From assembly GCA_016213785.1 (NCBI GenBank), contig JACQZQ010000021.1, positions 1-64,000 on the forward strand: a DNA stretch of 64,000 bases, read 5' to 3'. Both the position numbers and the translations under genes were made by a program. Within the stretch, counting starts at the first letter, position 1; every line of letters starts with the position of its first letter. Under the pieces are notes generated by a model. The model was not told where the DNA came from. It did not search any database and saw nothing but the letters and a program-made list of their open reading frames with translations. This document shows, in pieces, positions 32,920 through 44,238 of the stretch. Source of the stretch: Acidobacteriota bacterium. Its GTDB lineage: Bacteria; Acidobacteriota; Blastocatellia; Chloracidobacteriales; JADJPF01.

Positions 32920-34389
32920 ATGAATGCATTAGTAGAAAGTTCTTACACTGTAGCCATTATTGGAACTGGGTTTGGTGGTTTATGTATGGCTATCCAGCTT
33001 AAAAAAGCAGGTATTAATTCTTTTATTATTTTTGAAAAAAATGAACATCTTGGAGGAACCTGGCACGATAATACTTATCCAGGTGCAGCCTGTGATGTGC
33101 CATCACATCTTTACTCTTTCTCCTTTGAAGCTAAATCCGATTGGACACGCAAATATTCTGATCAAAAAGAAATTCTTGAGTATTTAGAATATTGTGCAGA
33201 AAAATACAAGATTTTGCCTCATATCCGCTTTAATACAGAAATTGAAAACGCTACTTTTGATGAAGGCTTAGGATTATGGCGTTTTTCTAGTACTAAAGGA
33301 GAAAATTTTACTTCTAAAATATTTGTCTCAGCTTGTGGTCAGCTCAATAGACCTGCTTATCCTAAAATCCCAGGAATTGAAGACTTTCAAGGGGTACAAT
33401 TTCACTCAGCACGATGGAATCATAAGTATGACCTAGAAGCAAAACGTGTAGCAGTTATTGGAACAGGCGCAAGCGCAATACAATTTGTTCCTCAAGTAGC
33501 CAAAAAAGCTAAAGAGTTAATAGTTTTTCAGCGTACTCCAGCTTGGGTTGTTTCAAAACCTGACAGGGCATATTTAGCAATAGAAAAGTCTCTCTTTAAG
33601 CATATTCCTTTAATCCAAAAACTACATCGTGGACAAATTTATTGGTGGAATGAAATTAGATTTCTATCTTTTCAACAAAATACTTTAGCTAATAAACTCT
33701 TTCTTTGGGCAGCACAAAGACATCTAAACCAAAATATTAAAGACCCAGAATTAAAAGCAAATCTTACTCCAGATTATCCATTGGGCTGTAAAAGAATCTT
33801 ACTTTCTAATGATTACTTAGAATCACTAACTAAAAACAATGTTAAAGTAGTCACAGATAACATATTACAAGTAGAAAATGATGGAATTACCTCATCCAAA
33901 AACAAATTTTACCCAGTGGATGCCATTATTTATGGTACAGGCTTTCAAAGTACTGATTTTCTAGCTCCTATGAAAATATATGGACGAAAAGGTCTAGACC
34001 TTAATCAGGCTTGGAAAGAAGGTGCAGAAGCTTACTTAGGTATAACTATAACAGGCTTCCCTAATTTATTTCTTTTATATGGGCCTAACACAAACCTAGG
34101 GCATAACTCTATAATCTATATGATTGAGTCTCAAGTAAGATATATTATGTCTAGCATTAAGGCTTTAAGAGAAAAAAACTTACGTTTCCTAGATGTAAAA
34201 AGTGAGCCTCATAGAAATTATAATAATGAAGTGCAAAGAAGGCTTAAAACCTCTGTCTGGGCGGCTGGTTGTACTAATTGGTATACAAATGCCGCAGGTA
34301 AAAACACTAATAATTGGCCTAGCTTTACATTTGAATATTATTGGCGAACATATAAAATAAATCTTACTGATTATGAATTAGTTACTTAG
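32920..34389 (+). CDS. Flavoprotein monooxygenase, Baeyer-Villiger type (489 aa)
   Basis: Two Rossmann motifs are present: IIGTGFGGL near the N-terminus for FAD and VIGTGASAIQF in the middle for NADPH. Between them lies the Baeyer-Villiger fingerprint FQGVQFHSARW (FxGxxxHxxxW). GGTWHDNTYPGAACDVPSH is typical of the family, as is the late TGFQ and FLLYGPNTNLGHNS. Such enzymes insert oxygen into ketones or aldehydes to give esters, using NADPH and O2. The substrate is unknown. AAGGAG lies just before the ATG. No catabolic partner genes are adjacent. Confidence 0.9.
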   Translation: MNALVESSYTVAIIGTGFGGLCMAIQLKKAGINSFIIFEKNEHLGGTWHDNTYPGAACDVPSHLYSFSFEAKSDWTRKYSDQKEILEYLEYCAEKYKILPHIRFNTEIENATFDEGLGLWRFSSTKGENFTSKIFVSACGQLNRPAYPKIPGIEDFQGVQFHSARWNHKYDLEAKRVAVIGTGASAIQFVPQVAKKAKELIVFQRTPAWVVSKPDRAYLAIEKSLFKHIPLIQKLHRGQIYWWNEIRFLSFQQNTLANKLFLWAAQRHLNQNIKDPELKANLTPDYPLGCKRILLSNDYLESLTKNNVKVVTDNILQVENDGITSSKNKFYPVDAIIYGTGFQSTDFLAPMKIYGRKGLDLNQAWKEGAEAYLGITITGFPNLFLLYGPNTNLGHNSIIYMIESQVRYIMSSIKALREKNLRFLDVKSEPHRNYNNEVQRRLKTSVWAAGCTNWYTNAAGKNTNNWPSFTFEYYWRTYKINLTDYELVT

Positions 34390-35323: not shown

Positions 35324-38300
35324 TTAGAAATTAAAACTAATAGTGTTAGATGTAATTCCATTTACTGTTACTGCCACTGTATTCTGTCCCTTTTTAAGAC
35401 CAAATTTCTTTTTACTTCCCTTAAGTTCAATTTTTGTGTCTGCTTGGCTACTGATTGTGCTACTTACATCAACATCATTTACCCTTACAATCGCACCTGA
35501 AGTACCAAAACCTGAGCCTAAAACGGTTAAAGTGGGTTTAGTAAAAGATGCAGTACTTACCATTAAACTGCCTGGAATTGTTATATTAAACATAGTCTGA
35601 TCACTTAACCCACCAGCATTTGTTACTCTAACTATAACAACACCACTTTGAGCACCCATTTGCGGAGCAATGCGAATCACTCCATTACCTGCGCCATTAT
35701 CAGTTAGTGAAACATACGTTGGAGCACCAATTAATGAGAGAGTTAGACCCATTTGATTAATTGGATCCATTACACTTACATTAACCATTGCAACCTCTCC
35801 TGGTTTTACAGTTTGACTAGCAACAGTATTTAATTTAGGTGGTCTAAGCATCTGTACAACACTAAGCTTTACCATTTGAGTACGCACTATTTGCCCTGAA
35901 GTACCTGTAACAATAATGTTAAAATCTCCAACTGTTGCATTTGCGAGAGCATTAACTGTCAAAGTTGAACTAGCACCAGGACTTACACCATTTTGTGAAA
36001 AGCTTAGCCTTAAATTGCTGTCTGGTGGGTCTACTGTTGCAGATAAAGAAACCGAGTCACTAAAGTCATTGATGGCTTGAGTGCTTATATTAAAGCTAGT
36101 TGCGGCTCCTAAAGGTACTGTTTGAACAGCAGGTCTAGCAACTAAAACAAAATCTCCTGCTGGCTTAGGTGTAATAACTAAACGAATCATTTCTTGACGA
36201 GTTACTGAACCGCTTTGACCTGTTAGAGCAATACTAAATACACCTGGCATAACACTGCTAGCAATATTAACAGTTAAAGTAGCCATTTGTCCGCTATTTA
36301 TACTAGTATTAGATAAACTTAGCGAAATCCCAGAGTTAGGAGGGTTTAGCACTGTAGCTAATGAAACAGCGCTGTTAAAACCATTTAAGCTATTAAAACT
36401 AACACTAAACCTAGCAATTCCACCAGCTTGAATATTTTGTGAAACAGGCGAGACATTTAGAGAAAAATCAGGAGCATTTGCAGAACTACCCAATAATTTC
36501 ATAACACGAATAGCATTATTAAAAGTATCTAAAACAAATAAACTAGAGTTACTATCTAGGGCTAAAGCATAGGGACTATTAAGTCTTGCTTGTGAAGCTA
36601 AATTCCCATCACCGCTAAAACCTGTAGTTCCTGTGCCAGCAATTGTACTAATAATACCTGTTTGAACATCAACTCGACGAATACGATCATTTTCTGAATC
36701 TGAAATAAAAATATTACCAGCATCATCAACTACTATGCCCTTTGGAAGTCTTAAACTTGCTGATGTAGCAACACCACCATCACCGCTAAAATCATCCATA
36801 CCATTGCCTGCAATAGTAGTGATTATTCCATTTGTGTCTATTTTTCTAACTCTACTATCATCACTATCTACAATATATAAATTACCCTTGCTATCTATGG
36901 CTAAAGAGCGAGGAAAAACAAATTGAGCAGCCTTTGCCATCCCTCCATCACCAGCAGACCCCATCATTCCTGTACCTGCAATAGTTGTAATCATCCCTGT
37001 TTGAATATCTATTCGTCGAATTCTTCTATTATCAGAATCAGCAACAAAAAGATTCCCCTCGCTATCAAGAGCCAAACCATGTGGAGAATTTAATCTAGCT
37101 TTTGTAGCCAGACCATTATCACCACTAAAGCCCGATGCTCCTGTACCAGCAAAGATAGTTATCATTCCAGTATTTAGATCCACTCTTTGGATCATATTTC
37201 TACCAGTATCAGAAATGTATAAATTATCTTCATCTACGGCAATTCCACTTGGAAAACGCAAATTAATATCTAAAGCAGATCCTTCTAATACTCTTCCATC
37301 ATCGCCGCCATCGTCTCCATCATCTCCATCATCGCCGCCATCATCTCCATCATCGCCGCCATCATCTCCATCGTCTCCATCGCCACCATCACTATCATCA
37401 TTATCGCTATTGCTACCGTCATCTTCTCCAAATTCCTCGCCAAGACCATCATCGCCTAAATTAGGGTCTACATCGTCATCACCTACAAGAGTATCTGCAA
37501 TGCCTTTATTTGTATCTATTACAACTACTCTATTGTTAAAAGTATCTGCTATATAAATAAACCCTTCTTGATCAATCACCATAGCCTCAGGGTAATCAAA
37601 ACGAGTATCCATTACACTACCTTTAAGAGTAAAGCTATTAGTTCCATTTCCTGCAATAGTTGTAATTATGCCATCAACTGTTACACGACGGATTCTATTA
37701 TTCCCAGTATCAGAGATAATTAAATTACCTAATCCATCTACAGCAATAGATTTAGGAAGATTTAAGCTAGAAGTAGTAGCAGCACCTCCATCACCACCAA
37801 AAGCAAGTTCACCGCTTCCAGCAACAGTTGCTATTACACCTGTTTTAGCATCAACTCGGCGAATTCGGCTGTTAACGGAATCTGAGATAAAAATATTACC
37901 TAGTGTATCAATCTTAAAATCTTCAGGAGAATTTAACTTAGCAGTGGTTGCAGCACCTCCATCACCTGCAAAGCCTTTAGTCCCATCACCTACAACGGTT
38001 GTAATAGTTTGAGTACTTGGGTTAATACGACGAATACGACCACTTGATGAGGCTAGGAAAAAGATATTATTAGAACTATCTACAGCAATAATTTCTACTG
38101 CTCCAATTGCAGTACTAGTAGCTATTGCTCCATCTTCACCGATAGTTTTATTACCATTACCTGCAATAGTTGTAATCAGCCCTGTTTGACTATCAACACG
38201 GCGAATCCGGTTATTGCCAGTATCAGCAATTAAAATATTTCCAGCTAAATCAACAGTTATACCTTGAGGAAACCGTAAACTTGCATTTGTAGCAAGACCA

Positions 38301-40306
38301 TTATCACCGCTAAAGGAACGTATACCATTACCTGCAACTGTTGTAATTATTCCTGTAATAGCATCAACTCTACGAACACGACTATTACCAAAATCTGCAA
38401 TAAATAAATTTCCACTGCTATCTAAAGCAATACTTTTAGGCAAGTTCAGGCTTGCAGCTAAAGCCGATGTCCCATCACCAGTAAAACCTCTTACACCGTT
38501 GCCTGCAATAGTTGTAATAACGCCTGCTGTATCTATCATACGGATACGATGATTACTAGAATCAACTACAAAAATATTACCAGCCCCATCAACTGCTACA
38601 CCTTCAGGTCTATTTAGACTTGACTCTAGGGCATCTCCTCCATCGCCTAAGAATGGAACCCCACCAGCAAAAGTAGTAATTTGACCATTTGTTAAATCTT
38701 GTAATGGGTCAGAAAAAATTCTAAATGGCCGTTGGATAACACCGCCACGAGTACGAATTGAAAGGGTTCTAATACCAGGTGCTTGTTGTGAAGGGACAGT
38801 AAAACGTAGTCTAGTAGAGCTATCTATTGTTGCTCTAACAACAGCATCCCCTAAAATCACATCACTCTCTGGAGCAAAGTTCTTACCTGTAACAATAATT
38901 TCAGTACCACCCTGTAAACGATCACTATCTTGAGTCATACTAATAATTTGTGGAGCACCAACAGTCACAACTTTTACAGCATCCCTATCACTTGTAGCAT
39001 TACTATCTAAGACCAAAGTCTGATTTCCTCGTACCACAACACTAGAAGCTTGACCAAAACTAACTCCAGGTTGAGCTAAAGAGATCATTTGTCTTTGTTT
39101 AGGATCATCTGTTATAAGCTTTGCACCTGATTTATCTACTACGTAAATATTACCAACGCTATCAACGCTAATTGAAGTAGGTTGATTAAATTCAAATTCA
39201 CTATCGGCTAAAGCAGAAATATCTTGAGAAGCGCTTTGATTAATTGGCCCAACAGTTGTTACTTTTCCATCTAAAGAGACTGCTCTAATACGGTTATTAC
39301 CCGTATCTGCAACCAGTAAAACAGTTTGTTGTTGTGTACCAAAAAAGCTAGTACTAGCAGATTGAAGGCTAATTGCAGTAGGGCGATTAAAAGCGGCGGC
39401 ACGGCCTTGACCATCGGCCTTTGAAGCTATGCCTGGTTGACCAGCAACTAAGCGAACTTGTTTTTTATTAAAATCAGCAACATAAATTGCATGGTTTCCT
39501 GTATCAACAATATAAACATTACCTCCTAAGTCAACTACAACACCTTGAGGAGAGCTAAAAGCAGCTTGTTCAAAAGGAGTTATGTCATTTCTATTGATTC
39601 CTGGGCTGCCATTACCTATTACCGTGATAACCTGATCATCAAAACCTACTTTTCTAACACTATGATTTAATGTATCTGCAACATAAGTACCACCCTGAGG
39701 GCGATTATCTAGAGCAATTGCTGTAGGGCCAGAAAAAAGTGCTTGGCTCCTCTCACCATCGTCTTTACCTCGACTACCTAATTTACCTGCAAAAACCTTT
39801 GCTTCTGCATTAGTATTTATTTTTTTATAAATAACATTACTAGCAGGATCACTAAGGTAAATAGCTCCCTGTGCATCAACTTTAGTATCTCCAGGAACTT
39901 TTACACCACTACTGCTATTTACTCTTGTTACAACAATAAAAGTAGAAACACTCTGACTACCCATTTTAGCTGTAATAGTGGCATATCCTCTTTGCAAACC
40001 AGCAACCATCCCTGTTTGAGCATCAACATTAGCAATATCAGGGCTATCAGAAGTAAAAGTAGCACCTGTTACTGGCTGACCATTACTATTTAATAAACTT
40101 AGCTGTAATTGTTTACCTTCATTAATTACAGGGTTAGGATCACGATCTGGGCCTGTTAATACTAAAGTGCTACTTTGCAAAACACTAGAAACAAATATGT
40201 GAGTATATTTTTGATAAGTTGCTAAAAAAACTCTAGAGCTTGCAAATAATGGAATAATAAGCACACATAAACAGATTAGAAACTTGCGAGATAAATATTT
40301 AGTCAT
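35324..40306 (-). CDS. Giant secreted NHL-propeller adhesin-like protein (1660 aa)
   Basis: Signal segment KFLICLCVLIIPLFASSRVF. Domains in order: a Big-2-like Ig fold (about 55-130; GYATITAKMGSQSVSTF); a first irregular NHL group (140-440); a TIG domain (about 455-540; GGTEIIVTGKNFAPESDV); NHL units with ITTIAGNG and FSGDGG motifs; a Gly/Asp linker (DDGDDGGDDGDDGG and similar) around residues 970-1005; four more NHL units; two Ig-like repeats starting DFSLNVSPVSQNI and DFVLVARPAVQTV; a cadherin-like fold; and a C-terminal TIG-like module. The protein is exported and probably at the cell surface, where it may bind polymer or calcium (acidic linker). Its C-terminal module is shared with two other proteins of this window. 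Confidence 0.85.
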   Translation of the reverse strand: MTKYLSRKFLICLCVLIIPLFASSRVFLATYQKYTHIFVSSVLQSSTLVLTGPDRDPNPVINEGKQLQLSLLNSNGQPVTGATFTSDSPDIANVDAQTGMVAGLQRGYATITAKMGSQSVSTFIVVTRVNSSSGVKVPGDTKVDAQGAIYLSDPASNVIYKKINTNAEAKVFAGKLGSRGKDDGERSQALFSGPTAIALDNRPQGGTYVADTLNHSVRKVGFDDQVITVIGNGSPGINRNDITPFEQAAFSSPQGVVVDLGGNVYIVDTGNHAIYVADFNKKQVRLVAGQPGIASKADGQGRAAAFNRPTAISLQSASTSFFGTQQQTVLLVADTGNNRIRAVSLDGKVTTVGPINQSASQDISALADSEFEFNQPTSISVDSVGNIYVVDKSGAKLITDDPKQRQMISLAQPGVSFGQASSVVVRGNQTLVLDSNATSDRDAVKVVTVGAPQIISMTQDSDRLQGGTEIIVTGKNFAPESDVILGDAVVRATIDSSTRLRFTVPSQQAPGIRTLSIRTRGGVIQRPFRIFSDPLQDLTNGQITTFAGGVPFLGDGGDALESSLNRPEGVAVDGAGNIFVVDSSNHRIRMIDTAGVITTIAGNGVRGFTGDGTSALAASLNLPKSIALDSSGNLFIADFGNSRVRRVDAITGIITTVAGNGIRSFSGDNGLATNASLRFPQGITVDLAGNILIADTGNNRIRRVDSQTGLITTIAGNGNKTIGEDGAIATSTAIGAVEIIAVDSSNNIFFLASSSGRIRRINPSTQTITTVVGDGTKGFAGDGGAATTAKLNSPEDFKIDTLGNIFISDSVNSRIRRVDAKTGVIATVAGSGELAFGGDGGAATTSSLNLPKSIAVDGLGNLIISDTGNNRIRRVTVDGIITTIAGNGTNSFTLKGSVMDTRFDYPEAMVIDQEGFIYIADTFNNRVVVIDTNKGIADTLVGDDDVDPNLGDDGLGEEFGEDDGSNSDNDDSDGGDGDDGDDGGDDGDDGGDDGDDGDDGGDDGRVLEGSALDINLRFPSGIAVDEDNLYISDTGRNMIQRVDLNTGMITIFAGTGASGFSGDNGLATKARLNSPHGLALDSEGNLFVADSDNRRIRRIDIQTGMITTIAGTGMMGSAGDGGMAKAAQFVFPRSLAIDSKGNLYIVDSDDSRVRKIDTNGIITTIAGNGMDDFSGDGGVATSASLRLPKGIVVDDAGNIFISDSENDRIRRVDVQTGIISTIAGTGTTGFSGDGNLASQARLNSPYALALDSNSSLFVLDTFNNAIRVMKLLGSSANAPDFSLNVSPVSQNIQAGGIARFSVSFNSLNGFNSAVSLATVLNPPNSGISLSLSNTSINSGQMATLTVNIASSVMPGVFSIALTGQSGSVTRQEMIRLVITPKPAGDFVLVARPAVQTVPLGAATSFNISTQAINDFSDSVSLSATVDPPDSNLRLSFSQNGVSPGASSTLTVNALANATVGDFNIIVTGTSGQIVRTQMVKLSVVQMLRPPKLNTVASQTVKPGEVAMVNVSVMDPINQMGLTLSLIGAPTYVSLTDNGAGNGVIRIAPQMGAQSGVVIVRVTNAGGLSDQTMFNITIPGSLMVSTASFTKPTLTVLGSGFGTSGAIVRVNDVDVSSTISSQADTKIELKGSKKKFGLKKGQNTVAVTVNGITSNTISFNF

Positions 40307-40515: not shown

Positions 40516-40544
40516 TTGACAAGAGGTAAAACTTTTATTAATAT
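40516..40544 (+). promoter_or_regulatory. arsR promoter
   Basis: A consensus -35 TTGACA (40516-40521), 17-bp spacer and -10 TAATAT (40539-40544) would start transcription at about 40551, only ~4 nt before ATG 40555. The operator candidate 40535-40570 overlaps the -10 box and the start point. Confidence 0.6.
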
Positions 40545-40570
40545 GTGCAAATATATGCATATATTAATAG
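40535..40570. promoter_or_regulatory. Candidate ArsR operator at arsR
   Basis: Two 15-bp arms around a 6-bp spacer (aatata) match at 13 of 15 positions. The core is ATGTGCA-N6-TGCATAT. It overlaps the -10 box and the first codons, an arrangement suited to autorepression. A matching core occurs at 40925-40944. Confidence 0.6.
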
Positions 40571-40911
40571 AAAACCAATTAACAAGAGAAGCTGCTGCTA
40601 ATAAGATATTGGATGTAATAGATTCAGAGTTTTTTAAAGCACTAGCAGAACCTGTGCGTATTGAAATAATAAAAGTGTTACTACTTTATGGCCCGGCGGA
40701 TATAAACTCAATATCAAAGCATATGCCTCAAGATCGCTCTGTTATCTCTAAACACCTACAGATACTTTTTAGAGCAGATTTACTTAATTGTGAGAAAAGT
40801 GGTAGACACCGTATTTACTCTCTAAAGGCAGAAGCCTTTGTAGGGCAATTAGAAAAGATTTTTACTACTGTACAAAAGTTGGTTGCTTGTTGTTGTCCTT
40901 CAACTAAATAA
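40555..40911 (+). CDS. arsR: ArsR/SmtB-family arsenic-responsive repressor (118 aa)
   Basis: A winged-helix repressor: EFFKALAEPVRIEIIKVL, then DINSISKHM and the recognition helix DRSVISKHLQILF, then the wing GRHRIYSL. The C-terminus has three adjacent Cys (LVACCCPSTK), as in ArsR types that bind As(III) through C-terminal thiols. Binding of As(III) would release it from its operator. ATG 40555 is chosen because TTG 40516 forms the -35 box and ATG 40543 lies in the -10 box. The transcript would be almost leaderless, which fits the lack of a ribosome site near the start. The neighbours are the other arsenic genes. Confidence 0.87.
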   Translation: MHILIENQLTREAAANKILDVIDSEFFKALAEPVRIEIIKVLLLYGPADINSISKHMPQDRSVISKHLQILFRADLLNCEKSGRHRIYSLKAEAFVGQLEKIFTTVQKLVACCCPSTK

Positions 40912-40924
40912 TTTTTTGATTATT

Positions 40925-40944
40925 ACGTGCATACATACGCATAT
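40925..40944. promoter_or_regulatory. Candidate ArsR operator upstream of the dioxygenase gene
   Basis: acgtgca-tacata-cgcatat has the same layout as the arsR site (two 7-bp arms, 6-bp spacer) and matches its arms at 12 of 14 positions. It lies 95 bp before the dioxygenase ATG, suggesting joint control. Confidence 0.45.
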
Positions 40945-41038
40945 ATATATTAACTAATGTTTTCATCAAACTAACCCTAGCTTAAATACATAAGCTAATT
41001 ATTATTTAATTTTTAACTTACTTAATAAAGAAGGATTT

Positions 41039-42031
41039 ATGAATATTATTAAAGCTCCTATAAATGCTAGTACTGCATGGCTAGGTAAGACTATGTCACT
41101 AGAAAGTAATTGGATACACAAACTACAAGGATCTGAACTTGCAGAAATAAACACTGCTTTAGAAAAAGCAAAATCAACTAATAAACCTTTACCAGAGCTT
41201 ACTTATAAGGATTTTCCTTTAACTAATTTAATAGCAACAATAAAAAGTTGGCTTAAAGAGCTTAATGATGGGCTAGGTTTCTTACTTATCAAAGGTTTAC
41301 CAGTTCAAAACTATAGTCAGCAAGAAATAGAAATTATTTATTATGGGTTATCTCTATACTTAGGGAAACCTGTCAGCCAAAATGCAGCAGGTGATTTAAT
41401 AGGCCATGTCCGTGATACTGGAGCTAATAGCAAAAACCCTGGTGTAAGGCTCTATCAGACTCGTGAAAAACAAGATTTTCACTGTGATGGTTCTGATTTA
41501 GTAGGACTTCTTTGCTTAAAACGTGCTAAAAGTGGAGGTTTAAGCCGTATAGTTAGCTCTATGTCTATTTATAACAAGATCTTAGAGTCTAGACCTGATT
41601 TAGTAGATTTGCTATATCAGCCAATGTATTTTGATCGTAATAATGAAGAGCCTATAGGAGAGCCACCATTTTTCCCTTTACCAATTTGTCATATTAATCA
41701 AGGAAAACTTAGGTTCTTTTACATAGGCTGGTATATAAGAAAGGCACAAAGGCACAAGGAAGTGCCTCGTTTAACAAAGCAACAACTAGAATTACTTGAA
41801 CTAATTGAGCTAACAGCTAATGATTCTGAGTATTACTTAGATATGGATTTTGATGTTGGGGATATTCAATTTCTAAACAATGGGGTTATTTTGCATTCAA
41901 GAACAGAGTATGAAGATTATGATGAAGTTGAACTTAAACGTCATTTGCTTAGGCTTTGGTTAAAAACGCATGATTTTTCTGTCGTCGAAGATATACTTAG
42001 AGAAGGTATCTTAGCTAGATCCAATCAATAA
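41039..42031 (+). CDS. TauD/TfdA-type Fe(II)/2-oxoglutarate dioxygenase-like protein (330 aa)
   Basis: GFLLIKGLPVQNYSQ is typical of the N-terminal part of TauD-family enzymes. The iron site is visible as FHCDGSD (HxD) and the distal His in LNNGVILHSR, followed by KRHLLRLWL, whose Arg fits the 2-oxoglutarate carboxylate-binding residue. Members oxidise substrates such as taurine or aromatic ethers with O2 and 2-oxoglutarate. An AAGGA ribosome site precedes the ATG. It follows arsR by 127 bp on the same strand and converges on arsC, and it carries an ArsR-like operator in front. A role in organoarsenical or other toxicant metabolism is inferred from context only; no such member is known to me. 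Confidence 0.85.
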   Translation: MNIIKAPINASTAWLGKTMSLESNWIHKLQGSELAEINTALEKAKSTNKPLPELTYKDFPLTNLIATIKSWLKELNDGLGFLLIKGLPVQNYSQQEIEIIYYGLSLYLGKPVSQNAAGDLIGHVRDTGANSKNPGVRLYQTREKQDFHCDGSDLVGLLCLKRAKSGGLSRIVSSMSIYNKILESRPDLVDLLYQPMYFDRNNEEPIGEPPFFPLPICHINQGKLRFFYIGWYIRKAQRHKEVPRLTKQQLELLELIELTANDSEYYLDMDFDVGDIQFLNNGVILHSRTEYEDYDEVELKRHLLRLWLKTHDFSVVEDILREGILARSNQ

Positions 42032-42036
42032 TAAGC

Positions 42037-42058
42037 AATAATAAAATTATTTATTATT
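42037..42058. terminator. AT-rich hairpin between convergent dioxygenase and arsC genes
   Basis: aataataaa and tttattatt form a 9-bp perfect stem with a 4-nt loop. It is AT-only and weak, lying in the 30 bp between the two stops. Call is tentative. Confidence 0.4.
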
Positions 42059-42061
42059 CCA

Positions 42062-42481
42062 TTATTCATTGACTACATTTGGCTTAGAGATACTTAAAAT
42101 AAGGTCTTTAACCTTAGATTCTATTAAATCTCTAACCTCTCTAAATTCTTCTTTAGACATATGTTTAGGGTCAGGGATTTTCCAATCTTCTCTATGTTTT
42201 GCCATTACAAACGGGCACTCATCACCACATCCCATTGTAATGGCATACTCATATTCGTCTGTAGGAATATCTTGCAAAGATTTAGAAGTATGTTTGGTAA
42301 GGTCATAGCCAAGTTCTTTCATTGTGTCTATAGCTTTAGGGTTTACATTTCCAGAGGGGCGAGAACCTGCACTATAAGTTTTAATTATTCTTTGACCATG
42401 AATTTTGGCAAAAGCTTCTGCCATTTGGCTACGACAAGAATTTTCTACACATACAAATAGAACTTTTGGTAACTTATTCAT
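42062..42481 (-). CDS. arsC: Arsenate reductase, LMW-phosphatase type (139 aa)
   Basis: The P-loop CVENSCRSQ starts with the nucleophile C11 and has C16 and the conserved Arg. MGCGDECP supplies C85 and C89 for the relay of disulphides, and DPKHMSKEEFREV follows, as in the thioredoxin/mycothiol-coupled ArsC class. It reduces arsenate to arsenite in the cytoplasm so that Acr3 can export it. It is the last gene of the minus-strand operon arsI-acr3-arsC, starting 18 bp after the acr3 stop. Confidence 0.93.
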   Translation of the reverse strand: MNKLPKVLFVCVENSCRSQMAEAFAKIHGQRIIKTYSAGSRPSGNVNPKAIDTMKELGYDLTKHTSKSLQDIPTDEYEYAITMGCGDECPFVMAKHREDWKIPDPKHMSKEEFREVRDLIESKVKDLILSISKPNVVNE

Positions 42482-42499
42482 TATAAAACACCTTCTTAT

Positions 42500-43588
42500 T
42501 TATATTGTTTTGCACAGTTTGATTTCTGTATTGGGTAAGTTTTCTGGAAAATATTTTTTTTCAAACCAAAGAGCAACATTAACTAAAGCTATTAAGGCAG
42601 GCACTTCAACTAAAGGCCCAATTACAGCCGTAAAAGCTGCTCCATGATGAATGCCAAAAGTTGCTACTGCTACAGCAATAGCTAACTCAAAATTATTTGA
42701 AGCAGCAGTAAAAGAAAGTGTAGCTGATTCAGAATAGTTGGCTTTTAATTTTTTGCTTATAAAGAATGAAATTATAAACATCACAACAAAATAAATTAGC
42801 AAAGGAATAGCAATCCTAATTACGTCTAATGGAAGCGCTACTATTACTTCACCTTTAAGAGAAAATATTATAACTATTGTAAATAATAGGGCTATAAGAG
42901 TTAGAGGACTAATTTTAGGGATAAAACTTGTTTGATACCAATCTTTTCCTTTGAGCTTTATTAAAGAAAACCGAGTGATAATTCCTGCTAAAAATGGAAC
43001 CCCTAAGTAGATAAAGACACTTTTAGAAATTTCTAAAGCTGTTATGTTTACTGAGGTACTTTTTAATCCAAACCAACTAGGTAAAAGTGTAATAAAAAAG
43101 TAAGCATAAATTGGATAAAAGAAAACTTGAAAAACAGAGTTAAAAGCTACTAGACCAGCACAATATTCAGAATCGCCTTTAGCTAACTCATTCCAAACAA
43201 TAACCATAGCAATACAACGAGCAAGACCAATCATAATCAGCCCAACCATATATTCTGGTTTGTCATTTAGTAAAGCTATTGCGAGTACAAACATTAGTAT
43301 AGGGCCAATTACCCAATTTTGTACTAAAGACAAGCATAATACTTTGAAATTACGAAAAACTTTTCCCATTTCTTCGTAACGTACTTTAGCTAAGGGAGGA
43401 TACATCATCAAAATTAATCCTATAGCAATAGGAATGGATGTTGTTCCAACGCTTAAAGTATTAAGCATTGGAACAACATTTGGACAAAAGTAACCTAAGC
43501 AAATACCCAAGCCCATAGCCCCAAATATCCAAAAAGTTAGAAATCTATCCAAAAAAGATAATTTGCTTGCTACACTTGGGGTACTCAT
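42500..43588 (-). CDS. acr3: Arsenite efflux permease Acr3 (362 aa)
   Basis: About ten membrane helices, for example [19 protein letters not shown], with the family signature [19 protein letters not shown]; its Cys is needed for arsenite transport in studied homologues. [20 protein letters not shown] and [20 protein letters not shown] are also typical. Acr3 exports arsenite across the inner membrane using the proton motive force. ATG 43588 is chosen because AAAGGA lies upstream and the N-terminus [16 protein letters not shown] fits other Acr3 proteins; an in-frame ATG at 43633 would overlap arsI. Confidence 0.93.
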
Positions 43589-43610
43589 AAAAACATCCTT
43601 TTTTGAACTA

Positions 43611-44159
43611 TTAGCATTTTTTAGATAAACCAACTAGATTTGCTGTCTCACTAGTTCCACAACAAGACATAGCAGTCTTTGAAGTTTCTGAAATAGTTGT
43701 TTGATTAGAAGTAGTGTCTACTGGAACTTCTTTATTTTCATCAGTTACACAGCACATAGAGGTTTCTGCTAAATTATCTTGAAGCACTACAAAAACTTCC
43801 CATTCATTGCCATCAGGGTCTTGTGCCCAAGTTTTATCTTGGATTGCATAACAACAGTTTGTTTGCATTTCATCACGAGGAGTTAAACCAAACTTTATCC
43901 ATTGTTCGCGAACTGCCATGACATCTTCAGTTGTTGCAACCTGAATTCCAAGATGAGAAAGTGCACCTCGTTCTTTTACTGCTATTTGATTAAGTGCTAA
44001 GTTAAGAGGTGGGTTTGCTACATCAAACTTTGCATAACCATTGCGAACTTTTGATGGCTCAACACCAAATAGCTTTTTATAAAATTCAATACTGTTTTTA
44101 ACATTACTAACGTTTAATGATATATGTGCTTTAAGACTTTGTATTGGTAAGCTGTTCAT
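43611..44159 (-). CDS. arsI: ArsI C-As lyase (organoarsenical demethylase), vicinal oxygen chelate fold (182 aa)
   Basis: Glyoxalase/dioxygenase fold: [20 protein letters not shown] with H12, [10 protein letters not shown] with H69, [10 protein letters not shown] with the vicinal C102-C103 pair that binds As(III), and [13 protein letters not shown] with E121. H, H and E are the expected Fe(II) ligands. ArsI splits the C-As bond of trivalent methyl- or aromatic arsenicals, releasing arsenite for Acr3. The C-terminal ~55 residues are Ser/Thr-rich with extra Cys ([21 protein letters not shown]) and could bind further As(III) or metal. It is the first gene of the operon. Confidence 0.9.
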
Positions 44160-44210
44160 AATTTAGATTCTCCTTTTATTTAATTTATATGCCTAAACGA
44201 ATATATTGTT

Positions 44211-44238
44211 ATTATGTTCCAAAAATAATATATGTCAA
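44211..44238 (-). promoter_or_regulatory. arsI-acr3-arsC promoter
   Basis: On the minus strand, -35 TTGACA (44238-44233), a 16-bp spacer and -10 CATAAT (44216-44211) lie upstream of AAGGAG and ATG 44159. The hexamers are close to consensus. The -35 box lies inside the inverted repeat 44228-44247. Confidence 0.6.

Follow-up and report, generated by a model that had tools for sequence, protein, structure and literature searches.

The arsenic resistance locus of an Acidobacteriota bacterium holds, between arsR and arsC, a gene for a TauD/TfdA-family dioxygenase (here tauD) that is preceded by a second copy of an arsR operator-like site, and relatives of this gene recur beside arsR, arsI, acr3, arsC, and arsM in other genomes. 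The interpretation that we favor, and to which we give an even chance of being correct, is that an ArsR-controlled Fe(II)/2OG dioxygenase of a distinct TauD/TfdA sublineage has turned into an arsenic resistance enzyme that works alongside ArsI and ArsM by hydroxylating, and probably demethylating, methylated arsenicals. Judged from comparative data, an already known superfamily of enzymes would here fill a role of which our literature searches found no description; if true, this would add a new substrate class for TauD-family enzymes. The mechanism of dimethylarsenate demethylation, a process relevant to rice straighthead disease, is described as unclear in the excerpted text of PMC10579292, which has ArsI acting on MMAs(III). 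A soluble, O2-dependent candidate with orthologs beside arsI and arsM would make the question of aerobic dimethylarsenate demethylation testable, and past additions of enzymes to the ars operon have each altered the picture of the arsenic cycle.

Organization of the arsenic locus

The window, by which we mean the whole stretch of 64,000 nucleotides that was analyzed, carries the arsenic locus at positions 40516-44238: arsR and tauD on the plus strand, followed by a convergent minus-strand operon, arsI-acr3-arsC. Promoter-like hexamers of arsR (TTGACA-N17-TAATAT, 40516..40544, plus strand) agree with the consensus in 10/12 positions of the scan, and the operator ATGTGCA-N6-TGCATAT (40543..40562, plus strand; core TGCA-N6-TGCA) overlaps the -10 hexamer. 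This site is a palindrome, ttaatatgtgca-AATATA-tgcatatattaa, at 11/12 arm positions around its 6-bp spacer. The arsR frame (40543..40911, plus strand) scores 61.4 bits against NF033788 (cutoff, 55), matches PF01022, and ends in ACCCPSTK in an alignment of 19 ArsR proteins; its true start is probably downstream of the operator, e.g., at ATG 40555 or TTG 40609. The second operator-like site, ACGTGCA-N6-CGCATAT, lies at 40925..40944 (plus strand) and is followed by tauD at 41039..42031 (plus strand; 330 amino acids).

The three genes of the opposing operon were assigned by their family models. A low-molecular-weight protein tyrosine phosphatase (LMW-PTP)-fold arsenate reductase, arsC (42062..42481, minus strand), matches PF01451 and has TIGR02689 as its best NCBIfam match, at 102.5 bits, below the cutoff of 157.6. 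The arsenite efflux pump gene acr3 (42500..43633, minus strand) scores 452.3 bits against TIGR00832 (cutoff, 282.8), and arsI (43611..44159, minus strand), of the C-As lyase family, scores 160.6 bits against NF041414 (cutoff, 116) and aligns with a Cys-Cys pair and a Cys-rich tail. Promoter-like hexamers of the operon (TTGACA-N16-CATAAT, 44211..44238, minus strand) agree in 11/12 positions and have the half-site GCATATA downstream; the arsI promoter carries no more than this half-site. A flavin monooxygenase gene at 32920-34389 was considered as ArsO and rejected (98.8 bits against a cutoff of 425). Adjoining the locus at 35324-40306 (minus strand) is a gene for a 1660-aa NHL-like-repeat protein with an Asp/Gly-rich repeat run.

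Structure and relatives of the dioxygenase

The TauD protein matches PF02668 at 116.7 bits (cutoff, 27) over residues 49-307, which correspond to positions 3-267 of the 267 in the profile. Residues H148, D150, H286, R301, and R305 are invariant in 50 aligned sequences; the HxD...H residues we take to be the metal triad, and the distal Arg presumably binds 2OG. An AlphaFold2 model made from the 50 aligned sequences has a mean pLDDT of 95.6. By sequence and modeled fold, then, the window protein is a TauD/TfdA-fold Fe(II)/2OG dioxygenase in which the metal-binding residues are present and turnover is predicted.

The closest solved structures, by sequence and also by fold, are FrbJ (PDB 5eqn, a phosphonate hydroxylase; E 3e-45) and TtnM (7n7v, a hydroxylase of the tautomycetin pathway; E 3e-44). 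Both share a subfamily of Fe(II)/2OG hydroxylases with the TauD protein, but they are only 25-30% identical to it and belong to natural-product pathways with no ars context noted. AsnO, TmpA, and human BBOX1 are remoter fold matches. TmpA (2-trimethylaminoethylphosphonate hydroxylase, 6npb) and BBOX1 share the superfamily at 16-18% identity in the fold match, and their hydroxylation beside a hetero-atom supplies the chemical model for our proposal. The window protein scores 15.7 bits against the TmpA equivalog NF049936 (cutoff, 400) and 22.3 bits against the trimethyllysine dioxygenase equivalog TIGR02410 (cutoff, 268.3), placing it outside both. Residues W198, N201, W231, and H239 are nearly fixed in the sublineage defined below and different elsewhere, the window protein itself having F198. 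The enzyme's cysteines were considered as a site for trivalent arsenic and rejected: C159 is family-wide, C217 occurs in 13/31 sublineage members, and no pair is clade specific. The lack of a sublineage-specific pair makes a trivalent substrate less likely than a pentavalent oxyanion.

Arsenic linkage of the TauD sublineage

We scanned 84,980 species genomes with the TauD protein and kept 79 loci, drawn from the best 80 of 548 confirmed matches. The nearest relatives among the best 80 of 548 (L042-L045) are 48-49% identical to it. Two of these four stand in ars loci, with the gene orders arsR-arsI-tauD in L042 and arsR-aquaporin-arsC-arsA-like fragment-tauD in L045, from Nocardia seriolae; the remaining 75 loci include none with arsI or acr3 and one, L084, with a weak arsC-like match about 4 kb off. 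Follow-up samples, with the center genome counted, had matches over the limit in 6/301 genomes of the N. seriolae family, 11/148 of the genus of one hit, 2/345 of the L042 phylum, and 22/282 of the L044 phylum (recorded as Myxococcales). The window's own tauD copy was the only one in its family (1/4 genomes), and a homolog occurred in 9/396 genomes of its phylum sample including its own, the other 8 being just 29-35% identical. With the stretches around these matches included, a total of 127 loci were scanned for ars genes; loci were picked by TauD similarity alone, several samples were centered on ars-linked genomes, and near relatives are not independent.

In a maximum-likelihood tree built quickly from 142 proteins, made without bootstrap and containing some long branches and a window protein of unusual composition, the window and all 20 ars-labeled rows (arsR-only rows included) fall into one 45-row clade with an SH-aLRT of 99. 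The ars label changes 7 times on this tree against a shuffled mean of 19, and 0/500 shuffles were as low. Within the clade is a 14-row paralogue group; the rest is a 31-locus sublineage that includes the window.

Linkage was counted with fixed score cutoffs and a 6-kb reach. Under these limits, arsI, acr3, or arsC is nearby at 14/31 sublineage, 0/14 paralogue, and 0/83 outgroup loci, and arsR at 21 sublineage loci, no paralogue locus, and 1 outgroup locus; the Fisher p for linkage is 1.5e-10, uncorrected for kinship, for the centering of samples, or for short flanks. Weak ars matches in outgroup loci L049, L084, and L111, all low-scoring and more than 2 kb off, were rejected as unlinked, though the fixed limits still count the L049 arsR. 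An arsM match above 200 bits is found at five more or less distinct sublineage loci (L190, L191, L192, L198, and L199) and in none of the other groups. A core ars gene (arsI, acr3, arsC, or arsM) thus accompanies tauD at 16/31 sublineage loci, and the figure with arsR counted is 23/31, seven loci having arsR only (L181, L182, L183, L184, L186, L189, and L193). The 8/31 without an ars gene are L043, L044, L127, L128, L129, L131, L180, and L195, two of which have a short contig or flank (L043 has 815 bp downstream); flanks are short at some loci. Clustering of neighbor proteins without named queries placed ACR3 and ArsI at 11 clade loci each and at no paralogue locus, and ArsC at 11 and 1. NCBIfam models matched 11/11 of the ArsI neighbors and 11/11 of the ACR3 neighbors, and 2/2 ArsM proteins tested exceeded the NF008823 cutoff.

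The linkage recurs in N. seriolae and more widely in its family, in Myxococcota-type genomes, and in the metagenome-assembled genome (MAG) RBC016, with a variety of gene orders. Within the family of N. seriolae, L130, L176, and L177 have arsC and arsI-tauD-arsR-acr3, and L181, L182, and L184 have arsR-tauD alone. Loci from the L044 phylum show arsR-tauD-arsI with acr3 divergent (L188), arsR-tauD-arsM-arsI (L191, and likewise L192, which is cut before the tauD 5' end), and arsR-acr3-arsC-arsM-tauD (L198). At L190:6886-8859, arsR is followed by a single 658-residue TauD-ArsM frame; this is one instance, and the fusion could be an assembly artifact. The order arsR-tauD-arsI-arsM was seen in L228 and L229, which were found via an ArsM-containing query and stand outside the linkage counts. 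The host's own genome has, on contig C19 (L235:3382-4162), another arsR (ending AECCTW...) followed by an arsM that is cut by the contig end, and the host may make methylarsenicals itself.

On these comparisons, it is well supported that the TauD family at large is not arsenic linked and that the window's sublineage is. The first-pass annotation had suggested a new arsenic-related oxygenase, perhaps acting on an organoarsenical before or after ArsI. This suggestion is supported in part: it agrees with the comparative data, in which the sublineage recurs in one cluster with arsR, arsI, acr3, arsC, and arsM. The co-occurrence with arsR and arsI that the annotation had named as a check is borne out in the sublineage, and its counterpart, that the gene would lie mostly outside arsenic loci, holds for the family at large and fails for the sublineage.

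Operator-like sites and probable control of tauD

The first-pass annotation had also called attention to a second copy of the arsR operator before tauD, and this observation stands: the tauD site, ACGTGCA-TACATA-CGCATAT, matches the arsR site, ATGTGCA-AATATA-TGCATAT, at 12/14 arm positions with the same 6-bp spacer, and it ends 94 bp 5' of the tauD ORF. In the 127-nt gap between arsR and tauD, a match of 12/14 was reached in 6/5000 dinucleotide shuffles, and when spacers of 4-8 were allowed, 9/1500 shuffles were as good. Across the whole genome (6.4 Mb, both strands), the motif with no more than 2 mismatches has 59 matches against 17 for a reversed-pattern control; in the window, with no more than 3 mismatches, it has 8 against 6.8 expected. 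The operator motif on its own is therefore weak and unspecific, and its position is what gives the tauD site weight, a match at that position being unlikely by chance. An operator regulon extending beyond ars loci was considered from four other own-genome matches without an ars gene (L216-L219, out of the 59) and rejected; the two of these regions whose core is intact fall within or at coding frames.

As a palindrome the tauD site is poor, and it is closer to the arsR site than to its own inverted half. A hexamer scan found no clear sigma-70 promoter beside it, and a scan of the gap found no terminator-like site between arsR and tauD. Given this negative scan, read-through from the arsR promoter, which may occur, would also put tauD under ArsR. 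We predict that the second site is likely a functional operator for ArsR.

Counterparts of the site elsewhere bear on this prediction. The same genome has, on contig C116 (L215:6060-6376), a broken second arsR whose frame is disturbed and whose middle is lost, with the CCCPSTK end kept; it is 86% identical to the window ArsR over the first 44 query residues. This copy is preceded by the same TTGACA stretch and retains the promoter and operator of the window arsR, and directly after its stop codon the tauD site has a counterpart in which TGCA-N6-CGCA is intact and the spacer and flanks are changed; both C116 sites fit TGCA-N6-YGCA. No tauD follows the C116 arsR, tauD occurring once in the whole genome; the copy adjoins a convergent flavin monooxygenase gene. 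In another genome (L189), the arsR upstream of a tauD relative shares 39% identity with the window arsR and has TGCA-N6-TGCA over its 5' end. Reading the tauD site as an operator is supported, not proven, by the C116 and L189 sites. A 134-aa protein without a Pfam match is encoded between arsR and tauD in the latter locus (L189:6591-6992). An ArsR of the window type scored above the limit in no other genome among the 247 sampled from the phylum.

Among the 19 aligned ArsR proteins near tauD relatives, 13 end in Cys-Cys; the window ArsR has three C-terminal cysteines (ACCC), and many of the ArsRs beside tauD orthologs have two. In having C-terminal cysteines they resemble type 2 AfArsR and SpArsR; the SpArsR type is marked by a C-terminal Cys pair with no third Cys. 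SpArsR, with two C-terminal cysteines, responds to methylarsenite and not to As(III) according to the excerpted text of PMC11868830.

Proposed function and alternatives

The favored mechanism begins with ArsR, which would bind TGCA-N6-YGCA sites over the promoter of arsR and ahead of tauD and would be released when trivalent arsenic, either As(III) or methylarsenite, occupies its C-terminal cysteines. Such a release would cause the dioxygenase to be made together with arsR, and at the time when the cell needs ArsI, Acr3, and ArsC. Most likely the enzyme would then act on a methylated arsenical, e.g., dimethylarsenate or methylarsenate, by hydroxylating one of its C-H bonds; the hydroxymethyl product would fall apart into formaldehyde and a less methylated arsenical, with which ArsI, ArsC, and Acr3 would deal. 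We propose hydroxylation, and probable demethylation, of a methylated arsenical because of the arsI and arsM neighbors, the methylarsenic-type look of the sensors, and the relationship to a phosphonate hydroxylase. ArsI requires Fe(II) and O2. As an organoarsenical enzyme and recurrent operon partner of tauD, it is a close functional parallel, but it has a VOC/glyoxalase fold with a Cys-Cys site, whereas the fold of the TauD protein is a different one and lacks this pair. Operons of arsR-arsI and arsR-arsM in actinobacteria and others (e.g., Rhodococcus, PMC6514093) share the regulator and partner genes with the loci described here, and the excerpted text of that source mentions no TauD-family gene. 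Searches of the openly available literature, including excerpts of PMC6514093, PMC10579292, PMC5923176, PMC10402746, and PMC11868830, found no link between a TauD-family gene and an ars operon.

Several observations count against this favored mechanism: the ars-free loci (8/31), a Rhodococcus ruber relative described below, the soxC neighbors, the lack of a Cys pair, the weakness of the tauD site, and the limits of the comparison, i.e., dependent loci, samples centered on linked genomes, and a quick tree without bootstrap. A demethylase beside arsM would, moreover, resemble a futile cycle. We offer only tentatively, as possible but doubtful, the bolder proposal that the sublineage is the missing aerobic di- or monomethylarsenate demethylase, a 2OG dioxygenase that would hydroxylate As-CH3, release formaldehyde, feed ArsI and Acr3 under a methylarsenic-sensing ArsR, and sometimes be fused to ArsM. 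The futile cycle would vanish if the ArsR-controlled enzyme instead oxidized the arsenic atom, turning a trivalent organoarsenical into a less toxic pentavalent form with an ArsH-like outcome, or made a new hydroxylated organoarsenical. The same neighborhood evidence would fit. We nevertheless judge this unlikely, given that the chemistry of the family (TtnM, FrbJ, and TmpA by fold) is C-H hydroxylation and that conserved cysteines to hold trivalent arsenic are lacking.

TauD is a sulfonate enzyme, and the substrate of an arsenic-induced dioxygenase might itself be free of arsenic: a sulfonate or other metabolite could be oxidized, e.g., with release of sulfite for thiol supply during arsenic stress. 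A soxC gene of the sulfite dehydrogenase type directly follows arsI at L192:2382-3668 (TIGR04555, 506 bits; cutoff, 420), another directly follows tauD at L194:8059-9342, and a Pseudomonas aeruginosa plasmid has soxC next to two TauDs of the outgroup. Its presence near just 2/31 sublineage loci, where arsI and arsM are far more frequent, and the closeness of the enzyme to FrbJ and TtnM rather than to taurine dioxygenase among solved structures make a sulfonate role quite improbable to us. Least credible is a chance insertion of an unrelated TauD gene into an ars locus, with the second operator as a coincidence or a leftover of arsR duplication. The sparse and divergent homologs in the phylum sample would accord with such an accident, as would a tauD site of weak symmetry, with no recognizable promoter, in a stretch duplicated once in the genome. 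It is, however, at odds with the recurrence of the linkage in N. seriolae and its family, in the RBC016 MAG, and in Myxococcota-type genomes, at the kinship-uncorrected Fisher p given above.

Further neighborhoods of the sublineage

Of 34 records with plasmid homologs, four were examined, and in none of these four is the homolog part of an ars cluster. The R. ruber plasmid pYYL1.1 (L234) encodes a 57%-identical relative of the L130 protein in a small, ars-free cluster. The genes next to tauD in L127 are those for WS/DGAT and a class III aminotransferase, and the relatives of L127, L128 and L129, are also ars free. Together, L127-L129 and the R. ruber relative suggest further roles within the sublineage. 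The transposon-flanked group of L234 comprises genes for an ATP-grasp maturase-like protein, a methyltransferase, a fragment of a flavin mononucleotide (FMN) monooxygenase, and an aldo/keto reductase, and it may be a small biosynthetic cluster. Two observations concern the arrangement of arsM: at L228:1187-2530, ArsI and ArsM share one open frame of 448 residues (in the relative L229 their frames are separate, with an overlap of a few bases), and at L199:5118-8035 there is a row of arsM, a stretch that looks like a sigma factor and ends close to a Cys-Cys motif, and tauD.
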